Virus record (IMG/VR): IMGVR_UViG_3300033992_000528
Span: 1-30,775 of that record
Origin: a virus
DNA: 30,775 nt
Reading direction: 5' to 3' (one strand)
The notes below the pieces were generated by a model. That model saw only the letters and a program-made list of their open reading frames with translations. It made no database searches and was not told the DNA's origin. The translations under genes and the position numbers were made by a program. Below, piece after piece: positions 10,943-16,248 of this stretch; position 1 is the stretch's first letter; the number at the start of each line of letters is the position of its first letter.

Positions 10943-10950
10943 TATATTTG
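10943..10950 (+). promoter_or_regulatory. -7 promoter box TATATTTG before the modification module
   Basis: A TAnnTTTG box in an AT-rich stretch. The expected transcription start, about seven bases on, falls right at the first stem of the structured leader (10957). No palindrome of the GTTAAAATTTTAAC type lies upstream. Confidence 0.6.
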
Positions 10951-10956
10951 TAGTAT

Positions 10957-11048
10957 AGTTACTGGTCTGACAATAAAGTAACTCAAGGAATTATTAACAA
11001 GCCTTGCAATGAATTGAGAAGTCAGACCCTCAAGGATTTGCAAGGCTT
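10957..11048 (+). ncRNA. Structured leader RNA with two hairpins and complementary loops (element 1)
   Basis: Hairpin 1: AGTTAC (10957-10962) with GTAACT (10978-10983). Its 15-base loop holds GGTCTGAC (10964-10971). Hairpin 2: AAGCCTTGCAA (10999-11009) with TTGCAAGGCTT (11038-11048), 11 perfect pairs, followed by a T tract as in a terminator. The loop of hairpin 2 holds GTCAGACC (11021-11028), a perfect complement of the hairpin 1 loop. So loop-loop pairing (kissing or pseudoknot) of eight pairs is possible. CTCAAGGA also occurs twice (10982-10989, 11029-11036), which allows alternative folds. The element lies 20 bases before the first gene of the module and may control termination or translation. 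Confidence 0.7.
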
Positions 11049-11068
11049 TTTTAATTTAATTAAATAAT

Positions 11069-11329
11069 ATGAACATTTTAGAAAAAGCAAATGAGATAGT
11101 AAATCTAAGATCAGAAGAAAAAGAAAGATATTACGGTCCTTTTGAAGAAGGAATGGCTAAAGCAGCCAAAATTGCATCTCTTATGTCTTCTAAGGACATA
11201 ACTACTGTTGACATGTATAATTGTATGATTGCGTTAAAACTATCAAGACAGTCATACAGCAATAAAGAGGATAATCTACTTGATGCAGTAGCTTATATAG
11301 GTAGTTTAAACAATACAATAAATAAATAA
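11069..11329 (+). CDS. DUF6378-like protein
   Basis: 86 residues. The pattern R.EEKERYYGPFEEGMAKAAKI, then ITTVDMYNCMIALKLSRQSY and DNLLDAVAYIG, matches phage proteins of the DUF6378 type: all-alpha, with conserved YG, an IT..D..... LK.SR block and a final Asp. These accompany nucleotide-metabolism genes in phages and resemble small MazG-like helical proteins, though the family has no assigned reaction that I know. It is the first gene after the structured leader and uses almost only AGA for arginine, like the rest of the module. Confidence 0.65.
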   Translation: MNILEKANEIVNLRSEEKERYYGPFEEGMAKAAKIASLMSSKDITTVDMYNCMIALKLSRQSYSNKEDNLLDAVAYIGSLNNTINK

Positions 11330-15235: not shown

Positions 15236-15277
15236 AAGAATATATTTTAAAAATTAATTGATAATAAAATATTTAAT

Positions 15278-15285
15278 TAATTTTG
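15278..15285 (+). promoter_or_regulatory. -7 promoter box TAATTTTG before the replication region
   Basis: A TAnnTTTG match in very AT-rich DNA, with TTG at 15258-15260 as a possible -33 element. The first hairpin of the second structured leader begins 11 bases later, as it does 7 bases after the box at 10943. Confidence 0.5.
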
Positions 15286-15295
15286 TAATAAATAA

Positions 15296-15377
15296 AGTAA
15301 CGTCGAACTTACTAAAAAATTTTATTAAAAGCTCTATTTCTTAATGCCTTTCGACGTGGCTAGAGAGATAGGGCTTT
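15296..15377 (+). ncRNA. Structured leader RNA with two hairpins and complementary loops (element 2)
   Basis: Hairpin 1: AGTAA (15296-15300) with TTACT (15309-15313), loop CGTCGAAC. Hairpin 2: AAAGCTCTATTTCT (15328-15341) with AGAGATAGGGCTTT (15364-15377), 14 pairs of which two are G-U. Its loop contains TTCGACG (15350-15356), the complement of the hairpin 1 loop. The order and spacing of the parts match element 1 (10957-11048) while the paired sequences differ, which is compensatory evidence for a real RNA fold. It lies 19 bases before the next gene. The T tract after hairpin 2 is broken (ACTTTTAAATT), so a terminator role is less clear here. Confidence 0.65.
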
Positions 15378-15396
15378 ACTTTTAAATTATGTAAAA

Positions 15397-16248
15397 ATGG
15401 CTAAAGAACTACCATATTTTAAATTTGAACCTAATCAGTGGGAAAATGGCAATATTCAAATTTTGACTAGAGATCAAAAAGGTTTATTTATAGACCTGTG
15501 CAGTATTTATTGGTCACGTGTTGGAGAATTGTCTCACAAATTAGCTATTCAAAAATTATGCAACGGCAATGCGACCGCATTAGATTTGCTTTACGAAGAA
15601 CAAATAATTGAGGTTATTGAGGGTAATATTTTTATTAAATTTTTATCTGAACAATTAAATGAATTTGAAGATAAGAACAAACAGAACTCAATAAACGCAA
15701 AAGAGGGGTGGCAAAAACGACGTAAACAAAAGGAAAAATGCGATAGCAATGCCACCGCGTCAATTCCGCAATGCGAAAACGATGGCATAATAGAATATAA
15801 TATAAAAGAAGATAATATAAGAAAAGATAATAAATCTCTTAAAAAAGAAAAAACAGAAAAAGTTTTTTCAGAGGATATTAAATTAATTTATGAAAAGTCA
15901 CTTTCTTTTTTTTCTGAAAATTTACACCCTAAAAATCCAAACGACTGGATGAAGTGTATTGACGAATTAATTAGAATCGATAAAATACCAGCCGAAATAA
16001 TTTTAGAAGCAACACAAAGGGCGCGCTCGGATTCTTTTTGGAATGAAAACTTTTTATCGTTAACCAAGTTAAGAAAAAAAAATCCAGAAGGAATACAATA
16101 CATAGTCGTATTTTATGAAAAATTTTTAAAACAAAAACAAAATGGAATCAATAAAACAAATAATGGCAAAGGAGTTACAGACGACGAACTTGCAAGAACG
16201 CTCCATGAGCATTTTATCAAGCAACGAGAGCAGAACGGTTCTAATTGA
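15397..16248 (+). CDS. Phage replication initiator-like protein (winged-helix N-terminus)
   Basis: 283 residues. The first 100 residues (ELPYFKFEPNQWENGNIQIL, then RDQKGLFIDLCSIYWSR) resemble the DUF1376/replisome-organiser N-terminal domain, which forms a winged helix that binds the phage origin. The middle (about 105-155) is Lys/Asn-rich linker. The C-terminal part (about 160-283) is helical and may contact the host helicase or loader. It follows a dedicated promoter and structured leader. There is no P-loop, so it is not a helicase. It overlaps the next frame by 107 bases. Confidence 0.6.
   Translation: MAKELPYFKFEPNQWENGNIQILTRDQKGLFIDLCSIYWSRVGELSHKLAIQKLCNGNATALDLLYEEQIIEVIEGNIFIKFLSEQLNEFEDKNKQNSINAKEGWQKRRKQKEKCDSNATASIPQCENDGIIEYNIKEDNIRKDNKSLKKEKTEKVFSEDIKLIYEKSLSFFSENLHPKNPNDWMKCIDELIRIDKIPAEIILEATQRARSDSFWNENFLSLTKLRKKNPEGIQYIVVFYEKFLKQKQNGINKTNNGKGVTDDELARTLHEHFIKQREQNGSN

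Follow-up and report, generated by a model that had tools for sequence, protein, structure and literature searches.

A new family of kissing-hairpin 5' leader RNAs in phages of Flavobacteriaceae, with an inferred role in transcription attenuation

Introduction

Do two sites of one phage genome, which share an interleaved arrangement of hairpins but not their sequence, represent a class of RNA, and what might such an RNA do in front of the genes it precedes? The question is raised by positions 15296-15377 of IMG/VR virus record IMGVR_UViG_3300033992_000528, of which positions 1 to 30,775 were analyzed (this whole stretch of 30,775 nucleotides is referred to as the window). In an initial annotation, the site was described as a second leader with the same order of hairpin 1, hairpin 2 and loop-loop complement as a site at 10957, and it was suggested that several operons might share a single class of phage leader RNA. 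Both sites, here leader 1 (10957) and leader 2 (15296), were compared with each other, with shuffled sequences and with related loci in other phages.

Results

Architecture of the two leaders

All parts of both leaders lie on the plus strand. The promoter of leader 2 (15258..15285) was read from the sequence and comprises a -33-like TTG (15258-15260) and TAATTTTG (15278-15285), which corresponds to the Bacteroidetes -7 box TAnnTTTG and places the predicted transcript start at about 15290. Hairpin 1 (15296..15313) begins at approximately +7 of the predicted transcript and consists of stem P1 (15296-15300/15309-15313) and a loop containing K, CGTCGAA (15301-15307). An A/U-rich, single-stranded linker (15314..15327), similar in composition in the relatives, leads to hairpin 2 (15328..15377; free energy -22.0 kcal/mol). 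In this terminator-like hairpin, an internal loop (15342-15345/15361-15363) separates the outer stem P2 (15328-15341/15364-15377) from an inner stem P3 (GCC/GGC, 15346-15348/15358-15360), which encloses K', TTCGACG (15350..15356), in the apical loop; K and K' would form the kissing helix. Right after the last G/C of hairpin 2 follows a terminator-like U-tract, TTTACTTTTA (15375..15384), which is interrupted rather than continuous. The gene behind leader 2 (15397..16248, ATG at 15397) encodes a DnaD-like helicase loader or replisome organizer, the product matching PHROG 2514 (E 1.2e-11) and PHROG 4880 (E 3.9e-7).

Leader 1 has its -7 box, TATATTTG, likewise read from the sequence, at 10943..10950. 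Its hairpin 1 (10957..10983) is formed by AGTTACT (10957-10963) and AGTAACT (10977-10983) with K, GGTCTGAC, at 10964-10971. Hairpin 2 (10996..11051) consists of P2 (10996-11009/11038-11051) and P3 (TTGAG, 11014-11018; CTCAA, 11029-11033) around K', GTCAGACC (11021-11028), with the U-tract at 11047-11052. The gene behind it (11069..11329) encodes a DUF6378 protein (Pfam PF19905, E 2.1e-12) and is the first gene of a putative DNA-modification module. Between 11069 and 15235, the window encodes the DUF6378 protein, a PALP-type PLP enzyme, a thymidylate-synthase-like protein and a MazG-like pyrophosphohydrolase, a gene set which looks like a thymidine (hydroxymethyl-dU) hypermodification module; relatives of the PLP enzyme were found at 52 loci on IMG/VR contigs.

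The order of hairpin 1, hairpin 2 and loop-loop pairing is the same in both leaders, with the interleaved pairs at the coordinates given above. The spacings reported for 15296 versus 10957 (20 vs 27, 8 vs 11 and about 6 vs 9 bases) are correct, and the pairing segments are, as had been claimed, unrelated in sequence though the fold is identical. The inner stem P3 around K' and the U-tract behind hairpin 2 had been overlooked. A shared element, AATAAAGTAAC, had also been noted; it occupies the 3' side of loop 1 and the 3' strand of P1 in one copy (10972-10982), and unpaired 5' sequence and the 5' strand of P1 in the other (15291-15301). A homologous role was rejected on account of these non-equivalent positions, and the match is considered a coincidence. 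Near-matches to this 11-mer (at most one mismatch) are commonplace by chance here (5 observed, 2.4 expected).

Tests against chance

A descriptor scoring P1, the kissing helix and hairpin 2 was built after both sites of the window were known. On the plus strand of the window, 10957 ranks first (score 32.5) and 15296 second (30.1). Of 500 shuffled versions of the window (one strand, dinucleotide content preserved), one reached a score of 30.1 and none reached 32.5, and none contained two sites at 30.1, so that the shuffle check proposed earlier does not yield two sites this good. Since the descriptor was made post hoc, the comparative test on relatives, and not the shuffles, is the decisive evidence.

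Relatives and covariation

Loci of DnaD-like gene relatives in IMG/VR were considered when at least 420 bases upstream were available or when a shorter stretch already contained a leader. At 36 of these 41 loci, a promoter-linked leader was found at most 1.1 kb upstream, preceding the DnaD-like gene itself or the gene just upstream of it; the leader is therefore not absent in relatives, which would have counted against it. About 45 distinct leaders were kept across all loci. To be kept, a leader had to have a promoter-like motif as well as a start codon at most 60 nt away; this set is selective, as is the descriptor. The descriptor misses expanded leaders, in which hairpin 2 is much longer or a hairpin is inserted; by eye, two such forms seem to be present, one at a further DnaD-like locus, upstream of 2985 on contig L038, and one at about 1530-1680 of Cellulophaga phage Nekkels_1 (L110).

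The closest relative of leader 2 (L017) could be aligned over the full length with one gap, which falls on the outermost P1 pair (the 29th pair). All 28 comparable pairs form in both (57/57 cells), with 8 double compensatory changes: the 14 pairs of P2 are intact in both, 6 of them doubly changed, the four comparable pairs of the five in P1 are all kept, one doubly changed, and the kissing helix contains one C-G to G-C compensation. In an alignment of the subtype of 10957 (A2, 15 leaders including 10957), 87.4% of cells are paired and 24 of 29 pairs have double changes; none of 500 shuffles was as high, and slid controls gave 37-48% paired. An alignment of another subtype (subtype II; A4, 10 leaders, three from cultured phages) is 98.6% paired, its kissing helix 98.8% with four double-change pairs. 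All four helices (P1, P2, P3 and K/K') covary, which supports the earlier statement that compensatory evidence speaks for an RNA class and not for chance. A natural experiment is provided by the cultured Flavobacterium phages morran, filifjonk and snusmum, whose loops GTGAGAAG, GTGAGACG and GTGGAACG are matched by the partners CTTCTCAC, CGTCTCAC and CGTTCCAC, respectively, although the surrounding sequence is similar (83-87% identity to morran).

For a non-circular test, viral contigs were searched by promoter and hairpin 1 alone, without using K' for selection. Each of the 16 distinct leaders found (some are close relatives of one another) has an exact 8-nt complement of its own loop 28-41 nt downstream; in the control, leaders with a different loop match over at most 6 nt. 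Within the stems, G.U outnumbers A.C by 42 to 5, as expected if the promoter-sense strand is the RNA. Inverted repeats or operators acting at the DNA level were rejected because of this excess and because the fold is tied to the promoter direction. From these comparisons, the predicted kissing fold is considered close to certain. A BLASTN search of leader 2 against phage records gave no match, as expected from sequence drift.

The loops are also largely specific within one phage. Seven phages or contigs carrying several leaders were compared, and in each of them pairing is better between cognate than between non-cognate loops; one strong non-cognate match was seen, on contig L020. With its own K/K' pair in each copy, leaders of one phage largely do not pair together, as expected for an intramolecular switch. 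Cross-talk among the leaders of a phage was mostly rejected, non-cognate loops seldom pairing well.

Subtypes and database searches

Three subtypes were distinguished; they were counted separately because MAFFT misaligned a mixed set of compact-loop leaders. In subtype I (10957), loop 1 consists of K followed by an A/U-rich stretch; subtype II is mirrored, with AA before K in loop 1 and the stretch behind K'; subtype III, to which 15296, L017, L043 and L032 belong, has two compact loops. With a covariance model of subtype I (R1), 10957, which is included in the model, scores 80.7 bits and leaders outside the model 58-80 bits. Leader 2 obtains only 18.0 bits (E 0.28), not significant alone, and this low score is taken as due to its compact-loop subtype. 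E-values of the covariance model are rough. The same model found no match in 395 Bacteroidia genomes at E 1e-4, which is weak evidence, since filters were stricter and few candidates were scored per genome. The proposed Rfam check gave no family match either: at the gathering threshold, Rfam 15 has no match in the window and 12 contigs of relatives, and loose thresholds returned noise only.

Promoter, U-tract and start codon

The box TAnnTTTG occupies positions -12 to -5 relative to the transcript start in Flavobacterium (PMC9723704). A box of this type is present upstream of every leader in the set, which was partly selected for it, and by the same rule P1 lies at or a few nt from the predicted 5' end in most leaders. 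By itself, P1 is weak (-3.6 kcal/mol), hairpin 2 has a mean of -18.8 kcal/mol, and the distance from K' to the last G/C of hairpin 2 is 17 ± 3 nt. At least six T within the 10 nt after this last G/C were observed in 44 of 45 leaders, the mean being 7.6 T in 10 nt compared to 3.6 slightly further on (p 7e-9). Hairpin 2 therefore meets the criterion of an intrinsic terminator, i.e., a stable hairpin directly followed by a U-tract. A generic terminator scan did not call hairpin 2, which is ascribed to its long loop, atypical of terminators. In the 45-member set, the leader is followed by a start codon after 3-52 nt, which mostly leaves too little space for another promoter; the gene would thus be transcribed via read-through from the leader promoter or from upstream.

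Hosts and downstream genes

Leaders occur both on IMG/VR contigs and in cultured phages of Flavobacterium, Cellulophaga (phi19:1 and phi18:3), Olleya (Harreka_1) and Tenacibaculum (Gundel_1). Behind the leaders lie the DnaD-like loader gene or a small gene that precedes it, and genes for DUF6378 proteins, HNH and GIY-YIG homing endonucleases, N6_N4 DNA methylases, DEAD helicases and AntA/KilAC antirepressors; the leader of Gundel_1 precedes an antirepressor gene. One contig of 9.5 kb (L020) carries five leaders, of which one scores low with the descriptor. The identical fold, built from unrelated sequences, stands before different genes of one phage and before one gene in many phages, which bears out the suggestion of one leader class serving several operons.

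Free-standing homing endonuclease genes often have their own promoter and leader (L003 410, L023 10152, L009 3354 and L020 4096), and the leader may travel with these genes. Two further structures were seen near DnaD-like genes. A related but different interleaved pairing without a clear U-tract precedes the DnaD-like locus of a Bacteroidia MAG contig (L106, 2240-2325). In phages of several host genera, the small gene that precedes the DnaD-like gene has a short conserved element, approximately AGTTATCGGTAATCTTTAAACCG with a CGGT/ACCG mini-hairpin, immediately 5' of its start codon (L102 14290-14335, L104 10452-10497, L111 about 2501-2550, L115 about 1501-1542); this element is possibly a translation operator.

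Discussion

Proposed mechanism

We conclude that these sites are a new family of cis-acting 5' leader RNAs of Flavobacteriaceae phages. The family is seemingly undescribed, as no description of the leader class was found in the literature searched, mostly without subscription journals. On balance, the leaders are most likely transcription attenuators in front of replication, DNA-modification, homing-endonuclease and antirepressor genes, termination and its regulation both being inferred. From the observed position between promoter and gene, host-type RNA polymerase would initiate at TAnnTTTG, and P1 would emerge at the extreme 5' end of the transcript, next the A/U-rich linker, the long hairpin (P2 with the inner P3) and a run of U. 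As shown by the covariation, the P1 loop and the apical loop of P3 pair over 7-8 bp to a kissing complex. Hairpin 2 and the observed U-tract would constitute an intrinsic terminator after 80-95 nt of transcript, shortly ahead of the start codon, and the gene would be expressed from the leader promoter only through read-through. With K' about 17 nt ahead of the last G/C, and taking the usual footprint of RNA polymerase to time its emergence, K' would leave the polymerase just as the U-tract is entered, and the kissing helix may then tip the balance between stop and read-through. By this inference, transcription of the downstream gene is probably decided by the leader, and the observed orthogonality of the loops would confine the pairing to each copy.

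The sign of the effect can only be inferred as well. A kissing helix that promotes read-through, like the folded put RNA in HK022, is slightly favoured by our analysis, and both the sign and any trans-acting partner are undetermined. A point against attenuation is that kissing helix and terminator hairpin are mutually compatible in secondary structure, so that this would not be a classical either/or attenuator; no conserved antiterminator was found. Transcript data for these phages were not found in the literature searched. A more far-reaching form of the proposal is tentative and rather doubtful: transcription control without protein, in which a hairpin at the 5' end catches the apical loop of the terminator itself during transcription, as a sequence-orthogonal, copyable module used for many early genes in several Bacteroidetes phage families.

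Alternative explanations

The knotted leader could instead hide the 5' end and stabilize the mRNA, or keep the start region open for translation, its likeness to a terminator being incidental. Such a shield would suit the position of P1 at or a few nt from the predicted transcript start in most leaders, the weak P1 (-3.6 kcal/mol), which the kissing helix would lock, and the short distance from leader end to start codon. It does not need a U-tract, however, and in 44 of 45 leaders the position of this tract follows the end of hairpin 2 rather than the start codon; we regard the shield as unlikely without dismissing it. A processive antiterminator of the put type, i.e., a folded RNA which binds RNA polymerase so that its own and later terminators are ignored, appears improbable. 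The leaders do resemble HK022 put in lying just behind early-type promoters, in their size of about 80-95 nt, in having two hairpins and in occurring as several copies per phage (PMC9378689), but they have almost no conserved bases beyond the pairing and a terminator-like end of their own, and put copies are alike in sequence and fold differently (a V shape with an RNA triplex).

Conserved unpaired bases (the A-rich 3' side of loop 1, a TGAA/GGAT-like internal loop and the A/U-rich linker) would be compatible with the binding of a small molecule or of a protein from phage or host, the leader then being a riboswitch or autoregulatory operator whose expression platform is hairpin 2. This unpaired set is small, however, and the downstream genes have no common pathway; ligand-binding classes usually depend on a conserved core, and the criterion of such a core together with a common downstream pathway is not met, which makes this reading quite improbable. 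Even less can be said for an independent small RNA gene lying before other genes by accident: promoter, defined fold and terminator-like end are all present, but only a few promoter-linked descriptor matches lack a start codon close behind on their own strand, and these score low for the most part and appear spurious; the loops pair with themselves and vary by copy and hence have no common target. Chance pairing in AT-rich DNA can be given practically no credence; single interleaved pairs this large do appear occasionally in shuffles, but covariation and the result for all 16 leaders of the non-circular test refute it.

Relation to known systems and significance

Attenuation by a kissing leader, as proposed here, has parallels and differences to known systems. 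In put, we know of neither a self-kissing pair nor an own U-tract. Like the leaders, put is a cis-acting two-hairpin RNA of a phage, located behind early promoters in more than one copy per genome and thought to act on elongation; that the leader promoters are early is inferred from the genes behind them. The flavobacterial leaders differ in drifting freely in sequence and in their terminator-like second hairpin. Copies of put share sequence, and put is active without trans factors via the beta' zinc-binding domain (PMC9378689). A sequence-conserved element like that of put is not met in the leaders, which share almost no primary sequence in their pairing parts (a direct comparison with put was not made).

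Terminator-type attenuators and riboswitches also combine a 5' leader, a terminator-like hairpin before the start codon and, in part, a loop-loop contact, the kissing loops L2-L3 of the purine riboswitch being an example. The flavobacterial leaders differ from them in lacking a conserved ligand core or common metabolic pathway, and in that the loop of the terminator is itself the kissing partner. The phage RNAs of Rfam and Weinberg 2010 (c4 antisense RNA, manA, wcaG and STAXI) are likewise structured RNAs and occur in phages or near DNA-handling genes, and STAXI has a pseudoknot, but the genes and hosts listed for them are unlike those of the leaders.

The leader class deserves an Rfam entry. 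With its small, unambiguous fold and natural compensatory variants it is directly testable in vitro, and the leaders may serve as a mutually orthogonal set for expression control in Flavobacteria. To our knowledge, gene control in Bacteroidetes phages is barely known, and an RNA module recurring in phages of at least four host genera is a first handle on their early gene regulation.
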